Shown piece by piece: positions 42,085 through 63,484 of a stretch of DNA of 64,000 nucleotides. Numbering within the stretch: position 1 is the stretch's first letter; each line of letters opens with the position of its first letter. A program made the translations under genes and the position numbers. The notes below the pieces were generated by a model. The model did no database searches. It was not told where the DNA came from and was given only the letters and a program-made list of their open reading frames with translations. The stretch comes from Natrinema salsiterrestre (GTDB lineage Archaea; Halobacteriota; Halobacteria; Halobacteriales; Natrialbaceae). Where the stretch lies: positions 1 through 64,000 of the forward strand of contig NZ_JAMQOT010000011.1 of assembly GCF_029502005.1 (NCBI RefSeq). Reading direction: 5' to 3'.

Positions 42085-42147
42085 TATTGACTGCTGTTTG
42101 TAGTCCGTCCATTTACCGTTGTGGGCGGGTTTCCGGGCCGAGTCAGA

Positions 42148-46200: not shown

Positions 46201-47884
46201 TGAGGAAGTTGCGTTCTTCCTCGGTCAGCGACTCTTTTTCGTCCTTCATCTCCCGCGCCAGTTCGGAGTACTTCCAGAGGTGGAGCGGGTGGAGTGGGGA
46301 GAGGACGAGTTCTCTATCGTCTTCGTATTCGAGAATGACGGTGTCGAATAGGAGGAAGTCGGAGAGAAGCTTGGAGGAGCCTTCAGAGCTAACGTCCTGA
46401 ATCTCCCGGTACTTCTTGTCCAGTTTGTCCTGGACCTCACGGTAGGCCTCTATGTAGTTTTCTGCGGATTCGAGCAGGTCATCGTCTCCGAGAAGCCGGA
46501 TAAGCGGTGCGGATAATAGTCCTGGTAGGGCGTCGACGAGTTCGCTACGGGCTGTTACGTATCGGTCGATGGATGCAACTAAGTCCTCGAACTTTCCGCT
46601 GTTCTCAGCCACTCTACGGAGTTTTTCGAAGCTGCTGTCTTCGCCTCGTGGCTGGAACTTCTCGGTTCTCAGAGCCTGGAAGTTCTTGATCGCGCTTTGC
46701 CTGTCCTCTGGGTTGTGGATGATACCACCGAAGGAGTCCTCGGTGACGAAGTGCTCAATAAAGTAGTAGAGGTCGTCGTTGACGTCAAAGGCCAACTGTT
46801 CATCTCCGGTGAACTCCATGTCGACCCGGTTTTCTTCTTCCTCGACGGCTTCTCGGTATTGGTCATCGAACTCTTCTGAAAGCCGTTCCAGTTCCTCGTT
46901 GTTGTCGTCGAAGACTGCCTCCACGCTAGCGGATTCGACGTCTCTCCGAGTGCTGGTGGTTGAACGTCGCTGGCTGGACTGGCCGGAGGTGGAGAATATC
47001 TCGTTGACCTCATTGTACGTCAGGTCGGCGAGGATCTCCGAGTCACCTGTTCGTTCGAACCGTCGAAGCTTGGCTACAGATTGTTCCCGTTCTTCCCTTT
47101 CGCTGTCATCGACTTTGGTGACACTGTTAGTGAGCCGGCGTCGATCCCTATTCGACATATGGGAGACCCGCAGCACGAGATCCAGGTTATCGGAAAGCCT
47201 GTCAGGGATTTCATCGGGGTTGTTAAGCCCCGGATCATTGAACAGCCGCAGTCTGTAGAGTTCGGTTCCGAGGGCGTCGAGTGAACCTTGTTCTGATTCT
47301 TTGAGCGTCGACGTTGCGTAGTCAGCAACTGCAGGGATTTCGAACCTGTCGTAGAGGTCGGAGCCAAGGGTTTCCCAGATAGCTTGGGCTGGGGGACTGT
47401 CGGTGAACTGTTTCTGGGCCTGCATCTGGTCGGTGATTTCTCGCGTGATTTCTGCCAGAGGCAAGTCGACCATACCCTCGAAATCTTTCATCGAATTCAG
47501 GCGGGCGTGGTCTCCCCGAACCAGAATCACCAGTTTCTCTGGTTCGATGCGTCCGTCCCATTCGAATCCGGTGTCGGTCCCATTCCGCCAGTTGACGGCG
47601 ACACTAACTTTGTCTGTGAGTCTGACGGAGGAGTCCTCTGTCCGTGACTGGAGATCGTCGATGTCTGCTTCATCGATGCTGACCATAGCAAGGCCGACAT
47701 CGTACCGTGCGTTACTGCAGAGAATATCGACGAACTCCTCAGCGTCGAATCGGGGTGGCGATTCGATTATAACTCCGATGTTTTCCTCGGTCAGCTGGTC
47801 GACTGTCTCGTTAGCGATTGCTTTGCCGATCAGATCCTCGTTGCTCTCGAATGAGCTGTCTTGTGTCTGTGTGGTTTCGCTCAT
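43277..47884 (-). CDS. FtsK/HerA-type translocase with internal PD-(D/E)XK-like motif (DptH-like)
   Basis: A 1535-residue protein. The N-terminal 650 residues are unassigned but include LVLSPLHPLHLWKYSELAR, seen in DptH-type proteins. Around residues 950-976 RADILTVQF and LDIIEIKTLEE give Asp955 and Glu973-x-Lys975, the spacing of a PD-(D/E)XK nuclease. An acidic linker (1114-1175) leads to an FtsK motor: Walker A GGATGSGKT at 1313-1321, Walker B IVVIIDE near 1415-1421, then LVISTQRPS. A motor plus nuclease in one chain could move on and cut DNA. Its start overlaps the preceding stop by 4 bases. Size and gene order resemble DptH of phosphorothioate-linked restriction, but no dnd genes are nearby. 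Confidence 0.8.
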   Translation of the reverse strand: MSETTQTQDSSFESNEDLIGKAIANETVDQLTEENIGVIIESPPRFDAEEFVDILCSNARYDVGLAMVSIDEADIDDLQSRTEDSSVRLTDKVSVAVNWRNGTDTGFEWDGRIEPEKLVILVRGDHARLNSMKDFEGMVDLPLAEITREITDQMQAQKQFTDSPPAQAIWETLGSDLYDRFEIPAVADYATSTLKESEQGSLDALGTELYRLRLFNDPGLNNPDEIPDRLSDNLDLVLRVSHMSNRDRRRLTNSVTKVDDSEREEREQSVAKLRRFERTGDSEILADLTYNEVNEIFSTSGQSSQRRSTTSTRRDVESASVEAVFDDNNEELERLSEEFDDQYREAVEEEENRVDMEFTGDEQLAFDVNDDLYYFIEHFVTEDSFGGIIHNPEDRQSAIKNFQALRTEKFQPRGEDSSFEKLRRVAENSGKFEDLVASIDRYVTARSELVDALPGLLSAPLIRLLGDDDLLESAENYIEAYREVQDKLDKKYREIQDVSSEGSSKLLSDFLLFDTVILEYEDDRELVLSPLHPLHLWKYSELAREMKDEKESLTEEERNFLINSVEEQPHVLRSIHVGGNYRLADETYLVQSAELDRLPVYTRIENAAEGTNSKFYDYVLDKFTSAYPPSQRHLKISVIDPLDPVDLLSDIADLAEKEEIQGATVEFAFIEDEEKPVLNGTASPSVSEDITNLFGPDNDSGEFEIVTTEHPSYDSYAESLKGDPQHFILINDQSNFSIQTFERDAETTIHPLYVPKEFDYDLLEDKINISPSKEGVLFSEYQDLINQLYNQRQAIHNAEVNELNVEKETIDDLLDSAIWVSISSPPMNGNPFWKDNLISRERRGERDFATYSEDIDYFRRVLRRIITEYRLAPDDTDLEDIAERIADLQQSGLLRLITRETLGSGKSRNTKGLLGSIIAVQWLQQTLADPKLIFSIDNPRTREWLNLGDSESRADILTVQFDDDGGLILDIIEIKTLEETSGAYTVKDEDGTKVVEGNAVDQVFETTDTIRGLFTGDKNLTTSPRKEALREQLYYELTSAEGMEGKQEWADRINDVFNGDAQIEINPRIVSVEVTSEATSDERIDGVTPNAQSIRVDKLPRQSIKRLIVSGIEDREDQRPEEDAEEEAVAEEETDEIDESETEVDREETGGEEEDTVGDDEKTDVNTESADRFGDPEEYTDLVETLKRVLNEFKINIRNIDPDDIDVGPNVVRFKIRLAPGEKQSSLEQRTEDIAREMAFEKEPIVQRLPGTEYVALDVPRENNVVVPQRDYRGRYKPSDEIETSSLPFLAGVTPDGDVYRSDLSEAPHMLVGGATGSGKTVFLYSLIMNFMEQKGEDNVEFALVDPKETDFIFFDALPNLSNGEVITDAEDAANLFEWLVEDEIPRRKQLLRESVCRDIGEYNEQNPDDQMKPIVVIIDEYSDLLQQLGEDADDTEDNVRRIAQIARAQGIHLVISTQRPSHEAIDTDLRANLDTRVAFRLPKQSDSRILIDEGGAEELGGDGDMLLKEADRTTRLQGLYVDSDDIRNLINQYR

Positions 47885-49383
47885 ATTTCCTCCTCGGGGA
47901 CAGAGACGATGGTAACGCCGTCCGCGTATTCCTCAGCATATCCAAGGCTTGATACTGCTTCTTTGAAGCCCTCGTAGTTCTGGTTGTTCAGCGGATCACT
48001 TTCGGATGCGCTGGCACCGAGGCGGATGTCCCACTCCGCCAGGTGGCTACGGTCCTGTTCGGTTCCGCCCACGATGATCCCGTACCGTTCCCGGAGTTCT
48101 TCTGAGAGATCTTGGAGAGACATGCTCGTGCCTGGTTCGATTACGGAGAGTAGGACGGGTTCCAGCATCTCGGGGTCGGGCCGATACCTACGTTTGTTCG
48201 CCCGGTTTCCTCGTGGTTTGAGGATCCCGGCACGCCAGGCGAAGGTCTGGGCTGTGGATTGCGGTGTGTATGTGTCGAATCGGTTCGAGAAGTCGTGGAT
48301 GACGTTGCTTACAGCATCCACCAGCCTGTGGAAGGTGGTATCCTTCTCGGGGTCTCGCGAGGCTCGGAATACCTGCTCGAATTTTTCGTAGTCCTGCTCG
48401 ATCTTGTCCTCCTTATTCCGGTTCAGTTCTAGGAAATTGTGGTTCTCGAGCTCTCGGAGGACGTCTTCCTCGCTGTAGTCTTTGAAGCCCTGCAGGTCAA
48501 GGACGTGCTTGACACCAAGCCTAGTGGCTAACTGGATTTCCGACCCGACGACGCGGAATGATTCAAGGCTGGCGTCGGCTACCGGGTTGTTCCTGTTTCC
48601 GGTGTAGTTCAGCACGATTGGGACAGGTTCGTCTTTGCCCTCGTCATCCCGGATCTCATTATGCCGGTTGGCCATATAGACGTAGAGCAGGAACCCGCCG
48701 AATTTGATGGTGCGGCGAAGGTCACGGGCGTAGTTCAGGTCGTAGTCGCCGTTGGAGTCCTTCAGGTGCTTCGACAGGGTTTCGAAGCCTTCGACGAATT
48801 CATCCGCAATCTTCCCGTCCCCGAATGCGTCTCCCAGGACAGGTTCTTCCCAGGGTGAGACCGTGACGTTGCCTTTCCCTCCGTCTTTGGCCAGTGGCCG
48901 GAACAGGAGAGAGATAGCGTCGTGGTGATCCTGAAGCTGGTCGGTCAGCTTCTGATTGATGTCACTGTCAGATTCGTCCAGTACGGTGTAGATGAACTGT
49001 GACGGTGTTACACCGATTCGGCGGTAGGCGACGAACCAGTCGCTCATAGAGGTCATTGCAGAGTGTCGTGGACTACTTGCGTAGAGGGCGTTGTCGTTGT
49101 CCAAGACCTTCCGCATCCTGTACCGAAGATTGTCCATTTGTTCGTCACTGAGATCGCGGGAGGACTCGAACAGGCCGTGGTATTTCTCGTCCAAGTCGCT
49201 GGAGGGGGTTTTCCCAGGTTTCTCGACGAATTTGAACAGGTCCTCCGACTGGTGAGTAGATCCCAGAACGTTACTGAAGACGACCTGGGAGAGATGCACC
49301 GGTTTTAGAGAGGCAGAGGTTGCTTTGAATCCGAATGCGGCTTCCGATGCGTCGGAGTTTACGTCGTTAAGTCTCATTGGCAT
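47881..49383 (-). CDS. Unknown defence-operon protein (500 aa)
   Basis: A 500-residue protein I do not recognise. ATG 49377 is an alternative start two codons in. The middle has a Gly-rich stretch (RPLAKDGGKGNVTVSPWEEP) and helical segments; the C-terminal 90 residues (SLQDLSEELRERYGIIVGGT to SLGYAEEYADGVTIV) look like a winged helix. In position and size it matches DptG, which sits between the ATPase DptF and the FtsK-like DptH, but no sequence motif proves this. It is fixed between a P-loop ATPase (6-base gap) and the translocase (4-base overlap), so it is surely an essential part of that module. Confidence 0.6.
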   Translation of the reverse strand: MPMRLNDVNSDASEAAFGFKATSASLKPVHLSQVVFSNVLGSTHQSEDLFKFVEKPGKTPSSDLDEKYHGLFESSRDLSDEQMDNLRYRMRKVLDNDNALYASSPRHSAMTSMSDWFVAYRRIGVTPSQFIYTVLDESDSDINQKLTDQLQDHHDAISLLFRPLAKDGGKGNVTVSPWEEPVLGDAFGDGKIADEFVEGFETLSKHLKDSNGDYDLNYARDLRRTIKFGGFLLYVYMANRHNEIRDDEGKDEPVPIVLNYTGNRNNPVADASLESFRVVGSEIQLATRLGVKHVLDLQGFKDYSEEDVLRELENHNFLELNRNKEDKIEQDYEKFEQVFRASRDPEKDTTFHRLVDAVSNVIHDFSNRFDTYTPQSTAQTFAWRAGILKPRGNRANKRRYRPDPEMLEPVLLSVIEPGTSMSLQDLSEELRERYGIIVGGTEQDRSHLAEWDIRLGASASESDPLNNQNYEGFKEAVSSLGYAEEYADGVTIVSVPEEEI

Positions 49384-49389
49384 TGGTGT

Positions 49390-50949
49390 TCACCTCCGCT
49401 CCATCTGGTACCGGTCATCGTTGACTGTCAGAATCTCGAGTTCGCCAGTTTCCGTGTCCATGATATGGACGGTGCCGTAATCTTCATCGTGGCTTTCCCT
49501 GTACTCGATTTCTTCCATAAATTCGAGCAACTGCTGTTCTTCTTCCCTTCCACGTAGGATGTAAGGGATGTTGCCGTTCAGGGCACCGAGTGTCTCTGAT
49601 AGGTCTGGATCAATCCGAAGCCTGACTGTTGAGTCACGTCCTTCGTATTCGAGAACGTGGTGGTCGTGGTTGTAGTCCATTGCATCGCTGATTTCGGGAT
49701 GGAGCTGCGGGACTCGGCGGTTCAACTCGCGCTTGGGAATTTCTGTCCGGGAGATAAGGGATAGGGAGCTTTTAGATCGATAGTTGTGGGAGAGCCAGAC
49801 GCGGAGGTCGGAGCCCTTGGAAGAATCCGGCATGAAATAGCTGTTAATCATCTCTATGACGTCCTCTTTCACGCTTTCAGCCGAACGGTCCCTGTTCCGC
49901 TGGTTATGGAAGGAGTAGTTGGTCTCGTGATAGAGGTCGCGAGCGTCGTAGTCTTTGATGGCTACGTCCTCAAAGTAGAACTGGCGTTTCTTCTCGATGA
50001 ATCGTTGGTCGACTTCTTCCTCTGAGTCTTCTTCGTCTCTCCGTGAAACCTCTTCTTCAGCGTCAGCCCAAAGTTTGCTGTCGATAAATGGATGAGTGAG
50101 GTCACGGGGATGGAAGTATTCGTTCAGGAGGGTGAAGATCTTCCCGCTGCCACTGAAGGCGAGGTTGTAGTATTTCAGATCTTCGTCAAACTCGGTGATG
50201 CTCTCTTCTTTGGCTCCAGTAATGCAGTAGGCGAGAAAGTTCAGGAGGTCACGAACGGTGACGTGGGCGTCCAGATGGCCCACGGACTGTAGGAGCCGGA
50301 TTATATTTTCTCGGACACGATCATTCCTCATCTTATCCATATTGTAGGCGATGTGTCCGTCGATGTCGTCGCCGTTGTTCTCTTTGAGGAACTTATTCGA
50401 AGTCAGATTCTCGATGGCTTGGCCGATGACCTTTCGGGTGAGAATGTTTCTGTTGTTGAGATCGATGACGACGATAGAGTCGAAATCAGCGTTGTCAGCT
50501 TGATCTTCGTCGTAGATTATCTGGTTTTGGAACTGGCTCCGAACTTTTTCCAGGAAGGGATAGTCGTCGGCGTGTTGGGTAGTCATCTCGTAAAGAGGGC
50601 CGTCATTAATAGCGAGAATACCAGGTCGGTCGTCGTCGAGGGCGTCTTTCCATTTGTCAAGTAGGACAGTATAGTCGTCGTACTCGGAGGCGTCAGAGAG
50701 ATAGAAATAGTCCGGTTCCGGGTACTCAGGCTTCATCTGCAGGATGTACTGTGTTTTACCGTCTCCAGGGTTCCCAGTGAGAATGACCTGCTTCCCATCT
50801 TCTAGTGCGTCCTGTAGGTATTCCTCACCATCTAGACGGGTTGTAATGTGTATTTCTCTGCGTTGCTCGTCAGTGAGCTGTTCAGCGAAGCCTCCCTGTG
50901 CCAGCTGTGAAAGGAATCGTAGATTCAGTGTCGATGCTTCAATTCCCAT
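49390..50949 (-). CDS. P-loop ATPase (DptF-like)
   Basis: A 519-residue ATPase. Walker A is LTGNPGDGKTQYILQ (Gly59-Thr66). A Walker B-like strand is SIVVIDLNNRN. The C-terminal half carries NYRSKSSLSLISR and a final beta region (VHIMDTETGELEILTVNDD). GNPGDGKT-type P-loops are found in STAND/AAA ATPases of defence systems, including DptF. It is the second gene of the leftward operon, 39 bases after the DruA-like gene. It may act as a switch that loads the translocase. The family call rests on the P-loop and gene order. Confidence 0.75.
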   Translation of the reverse strand: MGIEASTLNLRFLSQLAQGGFAEQLTDEQRREIHITTRLDGEEYLQDALEDGKQVILTGNPGDGKTQYILQMKPEYPEPDYFYLSDASEYDDYTVLLDKWKDALDDDRPGILAINDGPLYEMTTQHADDYPFLEKVRSQFQNQIIYDEDQADNADFDSIVVIDLNNRNILTRKVIGQAIENLTSNKFLKENNGDDIDGHIAYNMDKMRNDRVRENIIRLLQSVGHLDAHVTVRDLLNFLAYCITGAKEESITEFDEDLKYYNLAFSGSGKIFTLLNEYFHPRDLTHPFIDSKLWADAEEEVSRRDEEDSEEEVDQRFIEKKRQFYFEDVAIKDYDARDLYHETNYSFHNQRNRDRSAESVKEDVIEMINSYFMPDSSKGSDLRVWLSHNYRSKSSLSLISRTEIPKRELNRRVPQLHPEISDAMDYNHDHHVLEYEGRDSTVRLRIDPDLSETLGALNGNIPYILRGREEEQQLLEFMEEIEYRESHDEDYGTVHIMDTETGELEILTVNDDRYQMERR

Positions 50950-50988
50950 ATTTATCGTTGATGTTGGTGACCGAATGTTCCCGTCATG

Positions 50989-53106
50989 TTAACTGTTGCT
51001 TATAATGAACTCACTGAGACTGGCTTGCCGTTTGTCGAAATCGATCTCGCTGCTCAATTTGAATTCTTGCTTGTCAAATTCCCTAATATTCTCCAAGACG
51101 TCTTGTTTCTGAGCTCTCATGCTTGCCCACCTATCAATCCAATACTGATAGATTGACTCCTGCTCCTTCTGTGGGTCATCGAACTTCCAGTAGTATTCTG
51201 GGTTGTCGTCGATTCCCAGTAGATAGTCTTGGGAGTTCTCCGCCAGATCGATTCCGTACACAATCCGTCTAGACTCGTGTTTCAAGAGATCCGTCTCTAA
51301 ACCGCAGTTCTTCAGGCCACGGCGGATTTTCCGGATGCGAGGAGAGACACCTTCTCCGAACCGACCTCGGACCACCTTGCGACCTTCCTCTAACTGTGTG
51401 ACCTGACTAATCCGTTTTCGTGTTTCGGGACCGAACTGGATTGAACCGTATCCTTCAGTGTACCCGATCTGGTCGTATTCGATCTCGCCGTTTTCGGTTG
51501 GAACCCGGATACGGTCGTACTGGGCACTTCCAATCTCAAACAGGCCAGTGGTGTCGAGGAAAACCAGTTCATTCCGTTTACTCACTGCTTCGCCTTTCAT
51601 CGAGCTGGCGATTTCGCTCTGGTAGTCGCCGTATTTGTCCTGGTACATGTCGATGACCTTGGGACCCGTCAAGGCCATCGCCACAAGCTTCCCTCCGAGA
51701 ATACGGTTATAGGGAGGGATAGCGCCACAGACCATGATGTTCATCATCCCGGCACCGACCCGCTCCTTTTTGATCTCCTTCAGAGCTGTTTTGATAGCTC
51801 GCCGTCCGGAGTCGTTATTCAACCCAGTTCTGATGAACTCGACATCGTCCTCTTCGCTGTGTTCTTGGAAGTATTTTCGGTCGCGGAGAAGCTTTTGAAG
51901 TGCTCGAGCACGTTTTTTCCGGAACAGGGCTGTTTCACTTCTTTCCTCCCAAGACTCCATCTTCTCCGGGTTCTCGTCCTCACCATTTTCAATGGTCTGC
52001 TCGGCTTCCTCTTCTATCTGCTCAAGAATCTCGATAACCCGTTCGTCGGGATTGACGAAGCTTTCCTCAGAGAGTTCAGGGTGCTCCTCGGCAAAGTCGT
52101 CGTGTCGGATGTTGGATATTGCGTCCTTAATGGCGTCCTCTAGGGCTTCTCGTATATCGGAGCAGAACTCGCTGACCCTCTCTTCGTATTCTTCCTCGGT
52201 CTCTAGCCATTCTGTATTGGTGACTGTCCGAGTTTTCTTGTCCGGCGTCCGCTTCTCTTCTGGCAGCTGCTCCTCGTATTCGTGAACCCGTTTCTTCCGC
52301 TGGAGTTTATCTTCGACCGCGTCAATAGTCCAGCCGATATAGTCATCTCTGACTGACAGGTTCATCATCGGGCTTGCCAGTGTCGCAATCCCCATCACCG
52401 GGTCTTTCGGCTTCGCTGCATTTCTAATAAGGAAGTTGATGTTTCTTCCAGGGACCGTGTTATATGGTGTTAACCAAGTGTAGCGGAAATACCGCCAGAT
52501 ATCCATCAGGTCCAACTCGGTGTGATCACATTTCTCCCCAGTCTCTACTTTCTGTATGTAGGGTTGGACAACGTCTTCTAGATCTTCGGCGATTTCCTCT
52601 TGGTCCTGGTCCTGAAGCGGTGCTAAGTCTTGGTAGAGTTCTTCCCCATCGGTTATTAGTTCAAGAACACTTCGCCCGCCATTCGTATTTACGCGGGTGT
52701 CTCGCTCCATTTTCCGGACGAACTCGCGGACGCTTTCCTCTCGGAACTGCGCCCGTCGTTCTTTCTGAAGGACAGCGCGTTCCTGTTTCTTGAACTCTTC
52801 TGGGTCGTCTTTGTAGCGATCAGGATCCGGCCGAACTACGTGTAGTTCGGAGTTTTTGCGAATGTCATAGTTGATCTCAATGAGATCTAGGAGAACCTCT
52901 AACGCTGCGAGATATCGAATCTGGCCTTCAGTTACTTCATCCTCGATTTCGTTCTCGATATAGCGAATCTCGTCCTTGATGGCAACTTCCCTGTCGAGGT
53001 CCTCCTGAAATTCGATCAGTTCATCGGTCAGAGCCTCAAATCGGCGTTGGTACTGGTCCGGGAGATTAGGCGAAAAATCCACTTCTCGTTCAGAATTCGC
53101 ACCCAT
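50989..53106 (-). CDS. DruA-like DUF4338 protein with large insert
   Basis: A 705-residue protein from ATG 53106. The DUF4338 core, best known from DruA of Druantia systems, is visible in two parts. The first is PGRNINFLIRNA to MGIATLASP and LSVRDDYIGWT (219-260). The second is MNIMVCGAIPPYNRILGGKL to DMYQDKYG (455-492) and LVFLDTTGLFEIGSAQYDRI (514-533). Between them is a charged insert of about 190 residues absent from the usual 400-residue DruA. The N-terminal 200 residues are helical, perhaps coiled coil. It is the first gene of the leftward operon and faces the rightward operon across a shared promoter region. The family call is by motif pattern. Confidence 0.65.
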   Translation of the reverse strand: MGANSEREVDFSPNLPDQYQRRFEALTDELIEFQEDLDREVAIKDEIRYIENEIEDEVTEGQIRYLAALEVLLDLIEINYDIRKNSELHVVRPDPDRYKDDPEEFKKQERAVLQKERRAQFREESVREFVRKMERDTRVNTNGGRSVLELITDGEELYQDLAPLQDQDQEEIAEDLEDVVQPYIQKVETGEKCDHTELDLMDIWRYFRYTWLTPYNTVPGRNINFLIRNAAKPKDPVMGIATLASPMMNLSVRDDYIGWTIDAVEDKLQRKKRVHEYEEQLPEEKRTPDKKTRTVTNTEWLETEEEYEERVSEFCSDIREALEDAIKDAISNIRHDDFAEEHPELSEESFVNPDERVIEILEQIEEEAEQTIENGEDENPEKMESWEERSETALFRKKRARALQKLLRDRKYFQEHSEEDDVEFIRTGLNNDSGRRAIKTALKEIKKERVGAGMMNIMVCGAIPPYNRILGGKLVAMALTGPKVIDMYQDKYGDYQSEIASSMKGEAVSKRNELVFLDTTGLFEIGSAQYDRIRVPTENGEIEYDQIGYTEGYGSIQFGPETRKRISQVTQLEEGRKVVRGRFGEGVSPRIRKIRRGLKNCGLETDLLKHESRRIVYGIDLAENSQDYLLGIDDNPEYYWKFDDPQKEQESIYQYWIDRWASMRAQKQDVLENIREFDKQEFKLSSEIDFDKRQASLSEFIISNS

Positions 53107-53328: not shown

Positions 53329-54783
53329 GTGAGTAAACTTTCTATCCCCTTCGGACTCGACCCGGAGGGAACGAAAACTCCAATAGAAGAGGCCCAACGT
53401 AAGTCAGACTACTACCGGTGCCCAGAATGTGGTGAATTTCTAACCCCTCGTATTGGGACTCAGCGCCAGTACTTCGCTCATAAGCAAGGCGTTCTGGAGG
53501 ACATTTCCTGTTCACTGTCCAGCGACGAGGGTGTTGAAAAGATGATCGAGGATCTCCGTACCTCGGACATCGAAGAGGGTGAGCGTGAGCGGTCGATTCG
53601 AACCTATCTAGGGCAACGCCATGACGGTGGCATCGAATTATTTGGCATCGTTCCATCACTCGATTGGGATCAAATCCAAGAAGATGAGGACGTGGACACA
53701 CTCTTAGAAAACGTCGAAATCGAGGCAACAGGAATCACACATCCCCCCGTACCGAGTAACTTCCACCCATCGGAGGCAGAGGTCACGCTTGATCTTGACC
53801 CAACAGCGGATAGTTACGAACTTCAAATCTCAGGTCCAGATGCCCTCGGAAGTATCACCGGCACTTGGACTACTTCGGGGCTCCAACATGGTGATCTCTT
53901 TGTTGGTGACGAAACTCGGGCGCAGCGATATAACTCGGATCACCAAGTGCGCAAGGATATGTGGGTATATCTGGTCTCAAAGAATCCCCCGAAATCCGAA
54001 GTGTCGTTCGTGGACGTCTACGACTTCGCAGATGTATCCTTAGTCGGGTTCCGGGCGTCCGAAAAGACGGAACCATTTCTCGACCGCTATGGGGGAGGCC
54101 TTAGTACAGAAAACTACGGCTTCGATGCTGACGTTGTATTACCCGCACACACAAACCCAACCGTTGAGGCACCCCTATACGCACCACCAGAGGAACCAGT
54201 TCTCGTTGGAGTTACTCCCTCCGAGGAGGTCGATCCAATATTCGAGGTCGTTTCCATCCCCAAAGATGCAAACGAGACAGTCGAAATCGATCGGACTGGA
54301 GCGGGAAATCCTCGTTACTACACAACTGAGATACCCTCTGATGGATCGCGTCGTGTGAGTATCCACCAGCGGAACTCCGATCGGCATCGTCTGATTCACC
54401 TCCACCCATCCGAAGAATCGACGTTCATAGACGCAACCGAGCCAGAATCACGACGAATTGGTATTGAAATCCAAGATGAGGAACATCGTGACTTTCTCTC
54501 ACCTATCGAAGGTCCGTCCTCAAAGCGTATGCCCGTTGGTTTCAATCCTCATTTATTACATACCAACCTCGAATATGTCGGGCCAGAAGACCTTGAACTG
54601 GAAGTGATCGCTACATTTGCTGAAGGCGCATCGCTCGGTCCGACAATCAGCCGAGACGTAACAGCAATCAGTGATATTATCTCGGAGGTCATCCACTGGG
54701 TAGAGAGCGGCTGTAATGAACTCGAGATCCGGTTCAATGGTATTGGGGCTGTATCGATCTGCTTTCCGCAGGGGGAACAATGA
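53329..54783 (+). CDS. CoiA-type zinc-ribbon protein of unknown function
   Basis: A 484-residue protein using GTG at 53329; the open frame runs back to a TTG at 53209 but that part looks untranslated. The N-terminal zinc ribbon is YYRCPECGEFLTPRIGTQRQYFAHK, the same type as in the CoiA-like protein at 42148. A matching nuclease run (D...ExQ) is not seen. The rest is beta-rich, with repeated short strands (around HPPVPSNFHPSEAEVTLDLD and LYAPPEEPVLVGVTPSEEVD). It overlaps the next gene by 4 bases. It may be a recognition subunit; no name can be given. Confidence 0.62.
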   Translation: MSKLSIPFGLDPEGTKTPIEEAQRKSDYYRCPECGEFLTPRIGTQRQYFAHKQGVLEDISCSLSSDEGVEKMIEDLRTSDIEEGERERSIRTYLGQRHDGGIELFGIVPSLDWDQIQEDEDVDTLLENVEIEATGITHPPVPSNFHPSEAEVTLDLDPTADSYELQISGPDALGSITGTWTTSGLQHGDLFVGDETRAQRYNSDHQVRKDMWVYLVSKNPPKSEVSFVDVYDFADVSLVGFRASEKTEPFLDRYGGGLSTENYGFDADVVLPAHTNPTVEAPLYAPPEEPVLVGVTPSEEVDPIFEVVSIPKDANETVEIDRTGAGNPRYYTTEIPSDGSRRVSIHQRNSDRHRLIHLHPSEESTFIDATEPESRRIGIEIQDEEHRDFLSPIEGPSSKRMPVGFNPHLLHTNLEYVGPEDLELEVIATFAEGASLGPTISRDVTAISDIISEVIHWVESGCNELEIRFNGIGAVSICFPQGEQ

Positions 54784-56615
54784 ATCTGGAACCCGGTGAC
54801 GAGTTTACAGCGGAAGTAGACAAGATTACGAAACGGAGAAAACGGAGAACTTGTACTGTCAAATACGAAGGAGAAGGAATTAATATCGGCCCGGTGACGT
54901 GCCAACCCGGTCGTTCGGTTCGATTGCGGTACCTTGGGGCAGATTCAGTAGCTGGAACATCGATTCATTTCGCACTTTGCCTGACCGAGGAAGTCCTCGC
55001 GGACGATTACAAAGACCACATTCGACGCCATGTAAGCGGCCTTCTTCCTGACCAACCTCCACAAGAGGGCGAACAAACCTATATTGAGGTGGATAAGATC
55101 GATGAGTATGGCCTCGGACTCGCCGTTGCCGGTGGTGAAGTCGTCGAACTCGGACCAGTACAAGCAGATGAAGGCGACTTAGTGCACGTTGTAGGACGCG
55201 AACCTGGATATGCAGAGATCCTGAACGCAAGAGCACGTGGGAAACGCTACAGGATCCGCTTCAATATTCTTCGTGAACGCTGGGACAAACTCCCTATCAA
55301 AAAGGGCGAGTCATTCACGGCAACGATAGATGACACCGACGGCAGTAGTCTCATCGCGTATGTGGACGGGTTGCCTGTCTACTTTTCTGGAGAGAAAGCC
55401 CGAATCGGACAAAAAATCGAAGGGGAACTCATTAGATTTCACCGAGACCGCGGAGTTGGCAAAGTGACAAAAGTATATGATTCGGTGGGTGATATCGAAG
55501 ATCCAGGGCACGATACTCGGATGCAGCAACTTCAGCAAGCGGGGTTCGGCCAAGAACCATTTCGTGCGTTTGCTATGCGGTTTACTGGCGTGAGTGGCGA
55601 CCAACTACCATCAACTGAGATCGGTATCCGAGACGCCATAGCTGGTGAGGCAATCCGACTCGGTCTTGCGGAGAAAGCTGAATCGGGTGGCCAACAGTAT
55701 CCACAAGCACACATCACCGCAATCCGCCACTGGGTTGTTCATAAGCTGGCAGCTGTTCTCGGACAGCCGGTCGCTGGTGCCGATGAAGTATCCGATGATG
55801 TCGGGTGGTTTCGGGCAGCATTAACAGAGCGTACCGGCCCCACAATCACGTTCCTCGGTGATGTGATACAACTCTCACAGGGGTACTATGCTCCAGCACC
55901 GACGCGAGCTGTAATGATCTCCGAATCTGAGGCCGTGCTCGTTTCAGGAGATCCAAGTCGTCTATTCATAGAGTCCGGTTTTGATATCGAATTCCGAGGG
56001 TTGACGCGGATTCTTACTGACACCAGTGAAGAAGAATTGCGTTCGAGAGAAATCCCTGTTCAATCTAAAGACGAATACATCGGTCTGGACGAGGCGCCGA
56101 TTACGACGCCAGCCACACTACGTGAGTACATCGAACAGCGACCGCAGGAGTCGTGGGAACCGGAGGAGGATTGGGCACCATACACTGGACAGTACTATGG
56201 ATTTACCGTAGACGGTGAGCCGCTCGTCATTGAAGAGGCAGACGGAACTGCGATCAGCTTGTGGCGAGTTCCAGTCGAATACGGTGCCGATACCTACCAG
56301 TTGAAGGTTCAATCGGGCGACGGCAAAACCAAGGCCGTCACTGTTTCGCCGAAATACCGCAAGCATGCGTGCCTAATCCTTGACTCAATGGCTGAGGACC
56401 CACAGACTGTTGAACTCACCGGGTATGAGGAGGAGGTCTTATTGAGTTGTGACTTTGCACCGCCGCGGGCACAGATGCGTTGGCTGTACGCAGTCGGAGC
56501 AGAGTGGCTTGAAACATCGTCGTATCAGCTTCAATGGCGAATTTCGGACACCGATGCTAATTCAGTGCGAGAGGTCTTTGACGAACTGCCCGTGACCATC
56601 ATCGACAACACATAA
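54780..56615 (+). CDS. Protein with three TRAM/OB-like repeats
   Basis: A 611-residue protein. Three related beta-barrel repeats lie at about 5-53 (LEPGDEFTAEVDKITKRRKR), 96-148 (EGEQTYIEVDKIDEYGLGLA) and 175-231 (KGESFTATIDDTDGSSLIAY). Each has the Gly-Asp/Glu-x-Phe/Tyr entry and the barrel rhythm of TRAM domains, which bind RNA or DNA. The C-terminal half includes LSQGYYAPAPTRAVMISESE and a module that recurs in some defence proteins. It ends 1 base before the helicase gene, so the two are coupled. It likely presents nucleic acid to the helicase; this is inference. Confidence 0.65.
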   Translation: MNLEPGDEFTAEVDKITKRRKRRTCTVKYEGEGINIGPVTCQPGRSVRLRYLGADSVAGTSIHFALCLTEEVLADDYKDHIRRHVSGLLPDQPPQEGEQTYIEVDKIDEYGLGLAVAGGEVVELGPVQADEGDLVHVVGREPGYAEILNARARGKRYRIRFNILRERWDKLPIKKGESFTATIDDTDGSSLIAYVDGLPVYFSGEKARIGQKIEGELIRFHRDRGVGKVTKVYDSVGDIEDPGHDTRMQQLQQAGFGQEPFRAFAMRFTGVSGDQLPSTEIGIRDAIAGEAIRLGLAEKAESGGQQYPQAHITAIRHWVVHKLAAVLGQPVAGADEVSDDVGWFRAALTERTGPTITFLGDVIQLSQGYYAPAPTRAVMISESEAVLVSGDPSRLFIESGFDIEFRGLTRILTDTSEEELRSREIPVQSKDEYIGLDEAPITTPATLREYIEQRPQESWEPEEDWAPYTGQYYGFTVDGEPLVIEEADGTAISLWRVPVEYGADTYQLKVQSGDGKTKAVTVSPKYRKHACLILDSMAEDPQTVELTGYEEEVLLSCDFAPPRAQMRWLYAVGAEWLETSSYQLQWRISDTDANSVREVFDELPVTIIDNT

Positions 56616-56616
56616 C

Positions 56617-59600
56617 ATGAAATCAATCAAAGAAGTCTCGGAAGAACTCGAGAACGACCTTCAACAGTACATCGAATCACGTTACCACCTCCACCATCCG
56701 CGGCTTCTCAAGGAACGTCGTGCCCTGATGGACGAGGGAGAGACGGCCACCGAACCGTGGGTCGAGGCTACACCGACCTATGTTTCGGGGGATTCCCTCA
56801 GAGAGTTGGGCTTGCCGAGCGAAGTCGTCGATTTGCTGAAAGATCTCGAAAGCGACGATCTCGATATCTTCGATCCGCCGTATAAACACCAGGCCGACGC
56901 TCTCCAATCGTTCTTTAACGACGAGGACGACCTTATCGTATCCACTGGAACAGGATCCGGGAAAACCGAGATTTTCCTCTACTCAATTCTGGGTCAACTC
57001 GCACAAGAAGCAGCGCGAGGCGAAACAGCCGACAAACGTGGGATACGGACATTAGTTCTCTATCCAATGAACGCTCTCGTCGCGGATCAACTCTCGCGGA
57101 TGCGCCTACTCTTCGGTGATGAGAACGGAGCAGATACGCTTGAGGACTATATGGGTCGGCGGGTTCAGTTTGGGATGTATACGAGTCGTACACCCTATCA
57201 CGGGGAGTATGACACCAGCAAAAACGATAATTTGGTCAGGCCGGTCATCAAAAGGTACGTTGAGTTAGAGGAAGAGCAGCCAGACCTCTACAAACAACTC
57301 GCAGAGAAAGGCCGTATTCCGGCCAAGAATCTGGAAGGATTCTTGAATAATAATAACAGACCAAAAGAAACAAACTTTCGTACCCAACCCGGCGACACGG
57401 AACTCTTCACGCGTCAAGAGATGCACACTCGCGATGGAAGCAATCCCCATGGCGGGACGCCTGATCTCCTGATTACGAACTACTCGATGCTGGAGTACAT
57501 GCTACTCCGGCCAATCGAACAACCCCTCTTTGAGGATACCCGTGAATGGCTGGCCGAGGACGAAGAGAACGAGCTGAATATCGTCCTCGACGAAGCTCAC
57601 CTCTACCGAGGCGCCCAAGGAGCAGAGGTCGCACTCTTGTTGAGCCGCTTGCTCCAGAAACTCGGGATATCTCGCGAACGTGTGCGCTTCATCCTCACGA
57701 GTGCGACGATGGGCGAAAACGTAGAGGAAGCAGCCCCAGAATTTGCGGCCCAGCTCACAACCGGAGATCCGGACGATTTCTCAGTAATCACCGGTGAGCA
57801 GGTGGAGTACGAAGGTGGAGAACCGAGCGAGAAACGCACGGCACAACTCCTAGAGCGGGTTGGCTACCAACTCGATGATCCATCGAAGATTCGCAACGTT
57901 GCGAGCGAACGAGGCTGGGATCCTCTTGAAAGTGATGACGTAGAATCGGTCCGTTCGTACCTCGCTGACCAGTTAGTCGATGACCCACTCTTCAGATTAG
58001 CACACGAATATCTTCGTGAAGAGCCGCTGCGCCTATCGGCCCTTGCCGAAGAGTTGTTCGAGGACATCGATCAGGAACTGGCTCGTGAGGCGACGGGTAA
58101 TCTTCTGTATCTTTGTACCGAGGCCCGCCAGGGGGAGGATCAGGCGTTGCTTCCGACACGCCTGCATATGTTCCTCAAAGGGCTCCCCGCCCAGTATGCG
58201 TGTGTCAATCCTGAATGCAGCGGCCGCCGGGTAACAGAGGGGGAGAACCTCCTCGGGCGCATCTACAGTAATCCGCACACGACCTGTGAGTCCTGTGGCA
58301 GTCGAGTCTTCGAACTGATTAGCCACCGCACCTGTGGAGCAGCATATCTGCGTGCCTATCGACGCTCTGACGACGACCGCGGGCCGACGTTCCTGTGGTC
58401 AGATCCTGAGAGCAGCGAGGACTTGGACGAGCTTCATCTCTTAGTTGAGGAACCTCGGGATGACCCGAATCCAGACCACGAACACGGACGCTCGCTCGCC
58501 GAGACGACGACCTCACGAAACCTCTCGATTGCCTCCGGCCATCTTGTTGATGATCGGCATGTGGACGACGAAGGACCGACCACTCATATCGAGGTTCAGG
58601 TCCCGACTGAAGAGCCGCCGGACGAGGGCGGTGCATGGAGTTGGACCCAATGTCCGGCGTGCGGGATCAAAGAGCGACGTCGTCCGAATGGCGACACGAA
58701 GGTCGAAGATCTGGTCACCAAAGGTGAGGAACCATTCGCGCACAGCGTCCGCTCGATGTTCGGTATCCAGCCGACCGACCCACTCAAAGAGGAGTTCCCC
58801 AACGAGGGGCGCAAGGTATTGTGCTTCTCTGACGGTCGACAGAAGGCGGCCCGCTTAGCTCGCGACCTCCAATCGAACGTTGAATCCGACTCGTTCCGCG
58901 AGGTCTTAACCGACATTATTGGATCCGCGGAAGATGAAATCACGATGGGTCGGTTGTTCGCCGAGTTCGCAGTCTACTGTGCGAAAAACAACATCGTATT
59001 CTTCGACGACAGCGACCAATACACGAACCAGTCGGGTGTCGTGTATAAGGGTTCACGCTCCCACTTTGAGGATATTCGTGGGAACCTGTCCGATATTGTC
59101 GATGAGTACTATCTTGAGTCCATCGACGATATTCCGGAGGTGCCAGCCGCACGCAATGCGTTGTCGGAGCGTCCCCGCCAATATGAGGAACTTCTCCTCC
59201 GATCGTTGGGCGATGAGCAGTACTCCATCACCGGCGCTCTCGTCGGGTACATTGCGCCGTCCGAGGAAGTGTTTGAGAAAATCGATGAAGCGGTCCCTGA
59301 AATTGAGACAGACCAACTCAAGAGCATCCTCATCGAGGCGCTTCGTCATGCCTGCGAGGAACGGGCATTTGATTCAAGCATTGAAGCTAGACGACGTTCG
59401 AACTCCTATCCCTACCAAAATTGGATTGACCCGGACGATACGGGGCTCCCCCACAGCGAGATAATCCCTGAATATATTGTAGAATCACTCGACGACGAAG
59501 TGCCGGAAGAGGCGTGGAATAGTCTGAGACGGGCGTTGATGACGACAGAGCCTGTGTTGTTTGGGGCCTCCCACGGAAATTACTTCGTCAATCCAAAAGC

Positions 59601-62043
59601 AACGACAATCGATCTCCGACTCGACGACGATTGGTACCGGTGTGAAGGATGTCGCCGGTTCTCGGTAGTGTCTCTCAATGATTCGTGTCCCTACGATGGG
59701 TGTCGCGGAACTCTGAGTCCGGTTAGTGACGATGACATCCATCTCCAGGCACGGAAGAACTTCCTTCGGAACCCGCCACGCGAAGTGCTCCATGGCGAAC
59801 GGGACCCGCTCACGCTGCGTTCAGAAGAGCACTCCGCACAACTGAGTGCAAAGGACAACTCCGAGGCATTCGCACGCTCCGAAGAGTACGAACTGCTCTT
59901 CCAGGACATCCTTGTCGGGGACTCCGAGGCCGATCAGCCAATCGACGTGTTAAGCTGTACGACTACTATGGAAGTCGGGATTGACATCGGGAGTCTCACC
60001 GGCGTGGCCATGCGGACGGTCCCGCCAGGACCAGAGAATTATGAGCAACGTGCTGGTCGGGCAGGACGTCGCGGAGCTGGGCTCTCGACGATCGTCACCT
60101 TCGCGGACAACTCCCCTCACGAGTCACACTACTTCGAGAATCCTGAGGAGATGATAACGAGCGAGGGGAACGCACCGGTCATCTACGCCGGCAACGAAAA
60201 GATCGCCCGGCGGCACATCAACGCCTCGCTGCTTGCTCGGTTCTTCGATCCATCGGCCGTCGAGACGGAAGCTGCCGTATTCCGCTCGCTCAAAGGTACA
60301 GCCGAGTTCTTTGAAGGAGAAGGGGACCAAACCCTCGCCGCGTTCGAAGACTGGCTGGACGAAGAGATCTTCGCCGATTCATCGTCGACGCTCGAGCAAT
60401 TGGGGGCCCTCCTTCCGGATGCACTAGGAGAGGGACGTCCATCCGACTGGGAGGTCGCATTAGTCCGCGACGCCGCTACAGAGTTCCTAAGCGAACTCCA
60501 GGAGCTACAAGCCAAGACAGAATGGGAAGAGCAATCCACGGAAGACGACGATTTACTTTCCGTCCTTCTCGATGCAGCCCTCCTTCCGACGTTCTCGTTC
60601 CCGACTGATGTGGCCGACTTCGTCGTGCGCGAAAATGAGCCCGGGTCGTCACAGCCGAAGAACAAGTACCAGATGTCTCGGGATCTGAAACAGGCTCTCT
60701 CAACGTACGTACCAGGCCGAGAGATCGTCGTTGACAAGAAGACCTACGAGTCCTACGGTGTCTATGTCAAATTCCCAGACAACCCGAAGAACCGAGTAGC
60801 TGGCGAAGACTGGGGAGACCTCGATTGGTTGAACTGGTGTGACGTCTGCAAGACGGTCTTTGACGAGCATAATGAGAGTCTGGCAGCCAGGGATATGGAA
60901 TGTCCAGTCTGTGAGGGAGCGACCGTCAGTTCCCTTCAAATGTACACCCCGGAGGCATTTGCACCGAAAGTCGATGAGACAGGTGCAGCTGAGAAAGGAT
61001 CGGACTACAACGAGAACCGCGCCTACGCGACACAGCCTAAATACCCGCTGACGTCGACTTCTCACGAGAGTGAGAACGCTAGCGAGATGGCAGAGGAGAA
61101 ATCCATTGGCCATTCGATAGTGGGGAAGATGAATGACGAACAGCTTCTTGTCGCTAACTTTGGGGCTGATGAGGATGGATTCGAGGTCTGCACCGATTGT
61201 GGGGCCGTTAGCCGCGAAGGTCCGCTCTCGAACCCACACGCCCGTCCATACCCCAAGGATCTCCGATTTGTTGGGGAATATGACTGGGATGATCAGTGTA
61301 CCGGCTCAACAGTCACGACGAGTTTCAGCCACCGCTTCCCCAGTGATTTGACCGTCCTCCAAATCCCGTTAGGTGATGAGATGGAGTTTGTTCCATCCGA
61401 AGCATGGTTCGAGACACCAGGACAGTCGTTAGCTGAAGCATTAGTCATGGGTGCATCTCGTGCGCTAGGTATCGAAGATGACGAACTCGAAGGTGGATTC
61501 CGTACTCGTTCGGCAGAGCACGCCGACATCGACGCACGGGGCGTTATCGAGGTCTTCCTCTTCGACACAACCGCTGGCGGTGCTGGCTTCTCATCGCGCG
61601 TCTGGGAGGAATTCGACGCCGTGTGTGCAGAAGCCCGTTCAATCCTCGAGAGTTGCTCATGCGATACGGCGTGTCACAACTGTCTGCGCCGGTATCAGAA
61701 CCGCCATCTCCACGACTCGTTGAATCGCCACGAAGGCCTGGCCTTGCTCGATTACGCACAGACGGGGACTCCACCAACGCTTCGTCCTGATAAGACACAG
61801 AGCCTGATAAAGCAGCTCGAACGTGCCTTGGAGTTGAAGGAAGAAGATGTTGCACTCAGGGCGATTGACGACGATAAATGGGAAATCGAGATTGACGGGA
61901 CGACGATGACATTTGGTATTCGTTCGAGTCTGCGGCGTTCACGTGCCCCGACGTCGACGACGTACGACGAGGACTACTCAGACTACGAGCTGTCCCAACG
62001 GTTGCCAGAGGTGGCTCACTCAATCGTCGATCAACTCCAATAG
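56617..62043 (+). CDS. DruE-like DEAH helicase with DUF1998-type C-terminus
   Basis: An 1808-residue superfamily 2 helicase. Motif I is STGTGSGKTE (109-118), motif II DEAH (325-328), motif III TSATM (361-365). Motif V is TTTMEVGIDIGSL (about 1114) and motif VI QRAGRAGRRG (about 1143). Between them and beyond are zinc-binding pairs (CVNPEC, CESC, CPAC, CEGC, CDVC, CPVC, CTDC). The tail reads CSCDTACHNCLRRYQNRHLH (near 1680), the DUF1998 pattern. Size and layout match DruE, the common element of Druantia systems, and DISARM DrmA/B as a second option. It is in the rightward operon, followed 4 bases later by a nuclease. Confidence 0.85.
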   Translation: MKSIKEVSEELENDLQQYIESRYHLHHPRLLKERRALMDEGETATEPWVEATPTYVSGDSLRELGLPSEVVDLLKDLESDDLDIFDPPYKHQADALQSFFNDEDDLIVSTGTGSGKTEIFLYSILGQLAQEAARGETADKRGIRTLVLYPMNALVADQLSRMRLLFGDENGADTLEDYMGRRVQFGMYTSRTPYHGEYDTSKNDNLVRPVIKRYVELEEEQPDLYKQLAEKGRIPAKNLEGFLNNNNRPKETNFRTQPGDTELFTRQEMHTRDGSNPHGGTPDLLITNYSMLEYMLLRPIEQPLFEDTREWLAEDEENELNIVLDEAHLYRGAQGAEVALLLSRLLQKLGISRERVRFILTSATMGENVEEAAPEFAAQLTTGDPDDFSVITGEQVEYEGGEPSEKRTAQLLERVGYQLDDPSKIRNVASERGWDPLESDDVESVRSYLADQLVDDPLFRLAHEYLREEPLRLSALAEELFEDIDQELAREATGNLLYLCTEARQGEDQALLPTRLHMFLKGLPAQYACVNPECSGRRVTEGENLLGRIYSNPHTTCESCGSRVFELISHRTCGAAYLRAYRRSDDDRGPTFLWSDPESSEDLDELHLLVEEPRDDPNPDHEHGRSLAETTTSRNLSIASGHLVDDRHVDDEGPTTHIEVQVPTEEPPDEGGAWSWTQCPACGIKERRRPNGDTKVEDLVTKGEEPFAHSVRSMFGIQPTDPLKEEFPNEGRKVLCFSDGRQKAARLARDLQSNVESDSFREVLTDIIGSAEDEITMGRLFAEFAVYCAKNNIVFFDDSDQYTNQSGVVYKGSRSHFEDIRGNLSDIVDEYYLESIDDIPEVPAARNALSERPRQYEELLLRSLGDEQYSITGALVGYIAPSEEVFEKIDEAVPEIETDQLKSILIEALRHACEERAFDSSIEARRRSNSYPYQNWIDPDDTGLPHSEIIPEYIVESLDDEVPEEAWNSLRRALMTTEPVLFGASHGNYFVNPKATTIDLRLDDDWYRCEGCRRFSVVSLNDSCPYDGCRGTLSPVSDDDIHLQARKNFLRNPPREVLHGERDPLTLRSEEHSAQLSAKDNSEAFARSEEYELLFQDILVGDSEADQPIDVLSCTTTMEVGIDIGSLTGVAMRTVPPGPENYEQRAGRAGRRGAGLSTIVTFADNSPHESHYFENPEEMITSEGNAPVIYAGNEKIARRHINASLLARFFDPSAVETEAAVFRSLKGTAEFFEGEGDQTLAAFEDWLDEEIFADSSSTLEQLGALLPDALGEGRPSDWEVALVRDAATEFLSELQELQAKTEWEEQSTEDDDLLSVLLDAALLPTFSFPTDVADFVVRENEPGSSQPKNKYQMSRDLKQALSTYVPGREIVVDKKTYESYGVYVKFPDNPKNRVAGEDWGDLDWLNWCDVCKTVFDEHNESLAARDMECPVCEGATVSSLQMYTPEAFAPKVDETGAAEKGSDYNENRAYATQPKYPLTSTSHESENASEMAEEKSIGHSIVGKMNDEQLLVANFGADEDGFEVCTDCGAVSREGPLSNPHARPYPKDLRFVGEYDWDDQCTGSTVTTSFSHRFPSDLTVLQIPLGDEMEFVPSEAWFETPGQSLAEALVMGASRALGIEDDELEGGFRTRSAEHADIDARGVIEVFLFDTTAGGAGFSSRVWEEFDAVCAEARSILESCSCDTACHNCLRRYQNRHLHDSLNRHEGLALLDYAQTGTPPTLRPDKTQSLIKQLERALELKEEDVALRAIDDDKWEIEIDGTTMTFGIRSSLRRSRAPTSTTYDEDYSDYELSQRLPEVAHSIVDQLQ

Positions 62044-62047
62044 CGGA

Positions 62048-62911
62048 ATGGATGGGTCAGAACAGTTTGCACACGTAAACTGGTCGGCGTCGGCAGCACA
62101 GCTGTTCGAAGAGTGCCCCCGGCGGTTCTTTTATCGATACCAACAGATCGAGTCTACCGAGGACTATAGTGAGTATACACCGTCGCCAGGGGCCTATCTG
62201 GGAACTATCGTACACGAATCTCTCGCGGGGCAGGTTGCACGATGGGCTCGGGGTGAGAACATCCATCTTCAGACTGCAACTGAATATGCGAAAGACGAAC
62301 TTGAGAGGTATGTCGAAGCGAATTCTGAGACGATTGCTGATCGGATTGACATTACGGATGGGGAATCCTTCGATAGTGATTCCTTCACGCGGTCATTAGT
62401 TCGTACAGCCCGTAATCACATCAGGCAGTTCTTCCGGGTGATTTGGCCCCACCTTGAGGACCACCAGTATATCGCCCACGAAACGCGCCAAACGTTCGAA
62501 GTCTCCGAAGAACCCGTCACCGTCCAGCCAGATCTCTGTACGCGAAACCCAGAGGGAGACTTTGTCGTTACTGACTGGAAGACAGGCGCGTATGACCGGT
62601 TTAGTAACCCTACAATACAGATGCAAGCATATGCACTCTATGCTCACGAAGCGTATGAACCCGAACTCAGTCGGATTCGGGTCCAATTAGCCCATACTGG
62701 AAGTGGGGAGTTCGACCGAATGGTGCCGACCACGGAAGACATGAGACAGATCCGAGAACGGATTACGAATGATAGGGCCTTCTGGACGAGTATGGGGGAC
62801 ATCGAATCTTACAAGACAAATCCAACAGTCCAGAAATGTAGCCAATGTTCGTACCTTCACCGGTGTACAGACGGACAAACCGTCACGGGTGAAGAGCCAG
62901 AACCAAACTAA
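62048..62911 (+). CDS. Cas4/RecB-like PD-(D/E)XK nuclease with Fe-S cysteines
   Basis: A 287-residue nuclease beginning at ATG 62048. The N-terminal ASAAQLFEECPRRFFYRYQQ carries Cys23. The catalytic run is VQPDLCTRNPEGDFVVTDWK, that is Asp then Asp-x-Lys. The C-terminus has KCSQCSYLHRC (Cys264, 267, 273). One Cys before and three after the fold make the [4Fe-4S] staple of Cas4, AddB and Dna2-type enzymes. Such nucleases process DNA ends. It lies 4 bases after the DruE-like helicase, so the two form a helicase-nuclease pair like AddAB or Dna2. Nucleases of this type are not a standard Druantia part. Confidence 0.85.
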   Translation: MDGSEQFAHVNWSASAAQLFEECPRRFFYRYQQIESTEDYSEYTPSPGAYLGTIVHESLAGQVARWARGENIHLQTATEYAKDELERYVEANSETIADRIDITDGESFDSDSFTRSLVRTARNHIRQFFRVIWPHLEDHQYIAHETRQTFEVSEEPVTVQPDLCTRNPEGDFVVTDWKTGAYDRFSNPTIQMQAYALYAHEAYEPELSRIRVQLAHTGSGEFDRMVPTTEDMRQIRERITNDRAFWTSMGDIESYKTNPTVQKCSQCSYLHRCTDGQTVTGEEPEPN

Positions 62912-62983: not shown

Positions 62984-63484
62984 TCAATCACGCAATCGAT
63001 AAATCCACTTGCGACGAACAAAATCATCAACTGAGGACCGGCCTTCGCGCGACTGCCAACTATCTCCTTGAGCTTTCTCTTCCCGAACTAGTTTGAAACC
63101 TGCCGCAGAATAAATCGTCCCCTTGTTACCTGCTACTCCAGCGTGAGCAGAAATCCGTTGATAGCCCTCTAAGAACGCCCACTTTCGGGCGCGAGCGATT
63201 AGCCAAGAACCAGTGTTTGATGGCCTTTCGGGTCGCGATCCGTACCGTGTAATTGAGATTTCTTTGTCTTCGTCGACCATTCGGGCTACTGGACGACCGA
63301 GAACACAGACTGCAATTAGATTAGATTTATGACGAGCTCCGAACGCAGCCTTCCATCCAGGGATACCTCCCAATTTGTGGTCTACCATATCCGACTCGAG
63401 GAAATCGTTGATCTCGTTTCGGCTTCGCTCCCGGGTTAGTTTGAGATCCGATACAGAGTCTGGTACTGATATTGGACCTTTCAT
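62984..63484 (-). CDS. XF1762/GNAT-like protein
   Basis: A 166-residue protein. The pattern GARHKSNLIAVCVLGRPVAR, EISITRYGSRPERPSNTGSW and AGNKGTIYSAAGFKLVREEK follows the XF1762 family, which has a GNAT acetyltransferase-like fold and is common in phages and plasmids. Its reaction is unknown; some relatives neighbour DNA-modifying genes. It is convergent with the nuclease end (72-base gap). A palindrome TGAGGC-7-GCCTCA lies just upstream of its start and may be its operator. It may be cargo of the plasmid and not part of the defence unit. Confidence 0.72.
   Translation of the reverse strand: MKGPISVPDSVSDLKLTRERSRNEINDFLESDMVDHKLGGIPGWKAAFGARHKSNLIAVCVLGRPVARMVDEDKEISITRYGSRPERPSNTGSWLIARARKWAFLEGYQRISAHAGVAGNKGTIYSAAGFKLVREEKAQGDSWQSREGRSSVDDFVRRKWIYRLRD

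Follow-up and report, generated by a model that had tools for sequence, protein, structure and literature searches.

The gene at positions 54780-56615 on the + strand of the window, by which we mean the whole 64,000-nucleotide stretch of Natrinema salsiterrestre DNA analyzed here, encodes the DruD protein of a Druantia-type locus, extended at its N-terminus by an array of three predicted barrels. What is new about it is the fusion of this array to DruD together with the recurrence of the array on nuclease-type proteins, and not an unknown Druantia subunit. With moderate confidence we interpret the N-terminal OB-type barrels of this haloarchaeal, Druantia-I-related DruD, one of them TRAM-like and the other two sister S1/TRAM repeats, as a nucleic-acid-binding recognition or loading arm.

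The open reading frame was confirmed as a 611-aa protein with an ATG start that overlaps the stop of the preceding DruB-like gene (ATGA), and its TAA lies, as an earlier note on this DNA had claimed, one base ahead of the ATG at 56617 of the 1808-aa helicase; translational coupling is likely in view of this overlap and the one-base gap. The Druantia setting assumed in the same note was borne out as well, with the helicase (56617..62043, +) matching the PADLOC model DruE1 over residues 2-1807 (E = 0) and a gene at 50989..53106 (-) matching DruA1 (E 4.3e-148). Its further statement that the 611-aa protein has no match in described Druantia systems had to be abandoned, because the C-terminal 366 residues are DruD in DruD's usual place, which also rules out that the protein is unrelated to described Druantia. 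A similarity to a HipA N-terminal domain (NCBIfam, 0.067) was dismissed as a chance match, a phmmer search of the protein against PDB sequences returned 0 matches, and the number of relatives in viral contigs was 0.

The assignment of residues ~246-611 (55515..56615, +, including the stop codon) to DruD, in its usual slot ahead of DruE, is based on sequence comparison. PADLOC DruD1 matched this part with an E-value of 1.4e-6 over 78 residues, its identity to short stand-alone DruDs was 33-37%, and its profile matched that of the DruD pair from Pseudomonas putida and Nitrosococcus watsonii (4e-7, 272 columns) as well as the single bacterial DruDs (P. putida 1.3e-5, Nitrosococcus 0.0033). The order DruB-like gene, DruD, DruE agreed with that in the euryarchaeal loci L020 and L021. 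Nothing in the four matched PADLOC DruD1 models (316-359 positions) corresponded to residues 1-245, which form the N-terminal module (54780..55514, +).

The locus comprises eight genes, with those for the DruB-like protein, DruD, DruE and a PD-(D/E)XK nuclease on the + strand and those for DruA and the SspF-, SspG- and SspH-like proteins on the - strand. All eight were present in 7/7 haloarchaeal loci read with their flanks (the window, L010, L011, L016, L019, L024 and L025), the SspH-like gene being cut at the end of the stretch in L010, L011 and L024. L020 contained DruA, DruB-like, DruD and DruE genes only, as did L021, where DruE was cut by the contig end. The DruB-like gene (53329..54783, +; start according to the Haloplanus copy, longest reading frame from 53209) encodes a CoiA_N zinc motif that scored below the Pfam cut-off (2.2e-5) and is also found in P. 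putida DruB; it matched the P. putida DruB profile at 0.0004 over 32 columns and had no PADLOC match. The PD-(D/E)XK nuclease (61913..62911, +; 332 aa as read, Pfam PDDEXK_1 1.7e-23) probably starts further in, with relatives aligning from about residue 53, and such relatives were found in 6/6 other haloarchaeal loci read. The Haloplanus plasmid record, whose gene table is incomplete, lists no gene at this place. On the - strand (43277-53106), DruA (start likewise according to the Haloplanus copy, longest reading frame from 53208) stands at the head of a row consisting of an SspF-like ATPase (49390..50949, PADLOC SspF 1.7e-16), an SspG-like protein (47881..49383, PADLOC SspG 1.9e-12) and a 1535-aa SspH-like FtsK-type translocase (43277..47884, PADLOC SspH 6.1e-68, Pfam FtsK_SpoIIIE 6.2e-34), the three PADLOC matches each spanning part of the model only, and this arrangement was kept in 7/7 haloarchaeal loci. 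The locus is a Druantia/SspFGH-like hybrid.

Beyond the nuclease, a 166-aa protein weakly similar to Mom (PF25680, 3.1e-4, below cut-off) is encoded at 62987-63484 (-) and was kept beside the locus in L010, L011, L016 and L019; judged by this similarity it could be a DNA-modification gene. A separate unit at 39646-43254 (-) consists of the genes for GmrSD (813 aa) and for a 368-aa protein with a zinc motif. Both were rejected as members of the system, since a 3.65-kb stretch containing them is present on several other haloarchaeal plasmids whose records show no further match to the locus, and since the similarity to the Halalkaliarchaeum locus starts only past these two genes.

Druantia type I consists of druABCDE. 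The present locus resembles it in its recognized DruA1, DruE1 and DruD1 and in having DruD directly ahead of DruE, whereas it differs in that its DruD is long and bears three barrels, DruB is known by a short zinc motif alone, DruA lies on the opposite strand, and an extra nuclease and SspFGH-like genes are present. The PADLOC scan, which covered 11 window proteins, gave no DruC match, for which reason the locus was not filed as canonical type I; no gene occupies the slot between those for the DruB-like protein and DruD, and the archaeal DruB-like profile gave no match to P. putida DruC (0.59). The row of SspF-, SspG- and SspH-like genes recalls SspFGH of Ssp phosphorothioation defense. Unlike in the Ssp system, the row is read here behind DruA, and the PADLOC scan of 11 window proteins detected no phosphorothioation genes.

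With an alignment of 10 sequences (the window protein and 9 relatives) as input, AlphaFold2 predicted three five-stranded barrels in the full protein at residues 8-67 (54801..54980, +), 99-147 (55074..55220, +) and 178-233 (55311..55478, +), separated by linking helices at 77-88 and 157-170. The full model had a mean pLDDT of 68.7 and a pTM of 0.42, with residues 239-258 and 287-373 unreliable, and residues 1-168 modelled alone reached a mean pLDDT of 83.3. The three TRAM-like repeats of the earlier note, against which non-barrel domains in a fold prediction were to have counted, were thus recovered as predicted TRAM/OB-like barrels; the limits given there fitted for repeats 2 and 3, while repeat 1 extends to ~67 and not to 53.

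Closer comparison of the predicted folds indicates that barrel 3 is TRAM-like. Its best matches were TRAM domains, namely those of RlmCD (Z 10.0, 1.6 A over 61 residues), MMP0076 (Z 9.8) and MiaB (Z 9.3), in a ranking where rows within 1 Z count as tied and include other OB folds. For barrel 1, S1 and TRAM domains were about tied with a best Z of 7.6, under the clear-match level of the tool. The majority of the structures listed among the TRAM/S1 folds matched were RNA- or DNA-binding proteins. Pfam TRAM (PF01938) scored 13.6 bits at repeat 3 of the window protein and 16.7 bits in the best relative, both under the gathering cut-off of 21 bits.

Barrels 1 and 2 belong to one repeat family, which is of the S1/TRAM kind. 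In profile comparisons, whose E-values refer to single comparisons, barrel 1 matched barrel 2 at 1e-6, and the two matched the repeat of other haloarchaeal proteins at 2.4e-18 and 9.5e-10, respectively. The TRAMs of the own genome were matched by barrels 2 and 3 (7.7e-6 and 1.6e-5) and weakly by barrel 1 (0.0025), barrel 3 compared poorly with barrels 1 and 2 (0.0026 and 0.068), and four slices of the DruD part used as control gave 0.037 or worse. A repeat HMM built from 10 repeats of non-DruD proteins detected repeat 1 (24.9 bits) and repeat 2 (16.4 bits) in the window protein, with a top score of 6.5 bits among 3000 shuffled proteins as control, and did not find repeat 3 (1.6 bits). In 5/5 module-bearing DruDs tested, barrel 1 scored 23.4-42.7 bits and barrel 2 14.1-21.9 bits. 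The repeat alignment (A5) holds 9/10 repeat units, one with an insertion being left out. The five-stranded barrel, most clearly that of barrel 3, is a feature in common with TRAM proteins such as RlmCD, MiaB and archaeal TRAM proteins; a haloarchaeal repeat with a G-P-V motif is a closer match to barrels 1 and 2 than classical TRAM is, and unlike TRAM proteins, the DruD module scores below the Pfam cut-off and has no RNA-modifying enzyme attached.

The net charge per residue was slightly positive in barrels 1 (+0.029) and 3 (+0.015) and strongly acidic in barrel 2 (-0.186), the reference being a median of -0.063 for window reading frames of at least 200 aa (n = 34, spurious frames included). 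Given the acidity of barrel 2, contact with nucleic acid is likely for two of the barrels at most. Protein contacts are a further use of OB-type barrels, and this acidity, as well as the presence of extra subunits missing in four- or five-gene Druantia loci, would suit a module that ties DruD to the SspF/G/H-like proteins, the nuclease or DruE and touches no nucleic acid at all. We consider such a purely protein-binding module unlikely, given that Natribaculum longum has the same extra subunits without the module and that the repeat occurs on HNH and calcineurin-like proteins in differing neighborhoods, in which no common protein partner is apparent.

These other repeat proteins were recovered by profile searches. 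A module-only profile matched 8 DruDs and gave 4 weaker matches in 392 genomes of the order, and a repeat profile matched 21/292 genomes, 7 of these via DruD; among the 14 non-DruD genomes with the repeat, all but two with short or weak matches were read. A Pfam scan of 10 other repeat proteins, which left out L075, L076 and L080 (L075 and L076 resemble L074 and L073 by sequence), identified an HNH domain in 7/10 (L022, L036, L037, L074, L077, L079 and L081), a calcineurin-like phosphoesterase in 1/10 and neither in 2/10. The HNH proteins carry one to six recognized repeat copies, located N-terminally or towards the N-terminus, and belong to a common repeat family with the array of DruD, in which the C-terminal DruD part replaces the HNH nuclease domain. 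One of the HNH domains matched type IV restriction models of PADLOC (3.7e-18) and another HNH models (6.2e-12), and the HNH repeat protein of L022 adjoins type I restriction genes. The first HNH proteins were found via a profile of the DruD module, so that selection accounts for part of their likeness to barrels 1 and 2; the shuffle control addresses chance alone. The repeat-bearing calcineurin-like phosphoesterase, which we take to be SbcD-like by its motif, is found at 2713-4119 of L073 and 3751-5157 of L076 beside a UvrD-helicase/PD-(D/E)XK protein, an arrangement that looks like an undescribed helicase-nuclease pair. L078 (2811-10367) encodes an 810-aa multi-barrel protein with one repeat (36 bits) and further weak matches to barrel 3, flanked by two DISARM DrmE C-terminal-like proteins (2e-10; 6.5e-4, below cut-off); this locus is possibly DISARM-related. 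PADLOC gave no match for the calcineurin-like and multi-barrel proteins of L073 and L078.

The barrels are therefore a recurrent part of haloarchaeal proteins of defensive look, and their presence on unrelated DNA-cutting proteins suggests that they may be a common part for recognizing invaders. A tentative and on balance doubtful extension would be a single exchangeable barrel-array recognition module across HNH restriction enzymes, a calcineurin-like phosphoesterase and, via DruD, Druantia, in which a mark on viral nucleic acid, either chemical or structural, is read by the array rather than by the effector; array swaps would then retarget these systems. The repeats fused to nuclease-type domains also bear on a different role, in which the module, rather than picking targets, would block or decoy a viral anti-defense protein or guard DruD regulation via RNA, for instance in the manner of an RNA chaperone. 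The stand-alone archaeal TRAM protein TRAM0076 is described in the accessible text of its report as an RNA chaperone (PMC6705878), which together with the likeness of barrel 3 to the MMP0076 fold speaks for this role; we nevertheless regard it as improbable, because the fusions suit target recognition better than housekeeping RNA work.

The distribution of the module was followed in genomes and plasmids. Full-length relatives were present in 9/391 genomes of the class, the own genome counted, and all 9/9 carried the module in one frame without internal stop, down to 42% identity. Among the plasmid records, 3/4 matches were full-length and the fourth, from N. longum, spanned residues 246-611 only. 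In the phylum sample, 7/392 genomes matched, comprising 3 full-length proteins, 2 module-less DruDs and 2 other proteins matched by the module alone. Module-less DruDs were found in N. longum, two other euryarchaea and bacteria, the short DruDs read being those of L016 (N. longum), L020 and L021. A tree built from 10 DruE sequences contained a branch (82/100, 81% of bootstrap trees) that set the six module-bearing loci apart, with N. longum outside this group. The simplest reading is that the module was gained in one haloarchaeal lineage; its loss in N. longum is a possible alternative. The eight genes are all retained in N. longum, where DruD has no module, so the system can exist without it. 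A 24.3-kb stretch shared 99.5% identity with a plasmid of Haloplanus sp. GDY1, whose genome (G270) represents another family in the class sample, and this identity implies that the locus moves between lineages. Synonymous divergence between L011 (10001-10735) and the window was 1.20 in the module and 0.51 in the DruD part (~2x), and against L010 it was 0.97 and 0.51; this roughly twofold difference suggests that the module may recombine on its own.

The absence of the module from N. longum and the other short DruDs read might be taken to mean that it is a neutral, functionless fusion carried along with DruD. This is very improbable, as all 9 relatives keep a single open frame and dN/dS values of 0.07-0.12 in the module versus 0.11-0.14 in the DruD part (three pairs) show purifying selection in both that is as strong in the module as in DruD. 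Together with the TRAM/S1 folds, the repeat on nuclease-type proteins and the charge of barrels 1 and 3, this selection argues for the recognition or loading arm, while the acidic barrel 2, the module-free system of N. longum, the Pfam TRAM score below the cut-off, the weak TRAM profile match of barrel 1 and the use of OB-type barrels for protein contacts argue against it.

The array would most likely act as an additional arm that binds nucleic acid and supplies DruE with substrate or gates it, and its fold and its company with nucleases make it possible that it selects the target. The Vsr (nuclease-like) domain of type I DruE is predicted to be inactivated, according to the accessible text of one study (PMC12458937), in the main text of which the terms TRAM and DruD are absent, and DruE is regarded in the accessible text of another as a common motor whose core activation is set by the subtype partners (PMC13192584). 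It is on the basis of this predicted inactive domain and of partner-set activation that the array is read as a recognition or loading arm. Nucleic acid would be bound by the array, probably via barrels 1 and 3, while DruD would keep the array on the Druantia complex. In this way the array could catch viral RNA or DNA, be it single-stranded, structured (in the case of RNA) or modified, and the capture would direct or license DruE. With the nuclease-like domain of DruE predicted inactive, cutting would be left to the neighboring PD-(D/E)XK protein, to the SspFGH-like proteins or to both, which is the least certain step.

A literature search, outside of which most subscription papers fell, revealed no published account of Druantia in haloarchaea, no work joining the TRAM domain with an antiphage role or with HNH and, for the TRAM domain with defense systems, nothing on a barrel-DruD fusion by title. 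Because DruD occurs both with a detachable array that may bind nucleic acid and in a form lacking it, the question of how Druantia type I chooses its target becomes testable by deleting a single domain. Were the array to read nucleic acid of viruses, the presence of its repeat on HNH proteins of haloarchaea would suggest a recognition part of general use in archaeal immunity.
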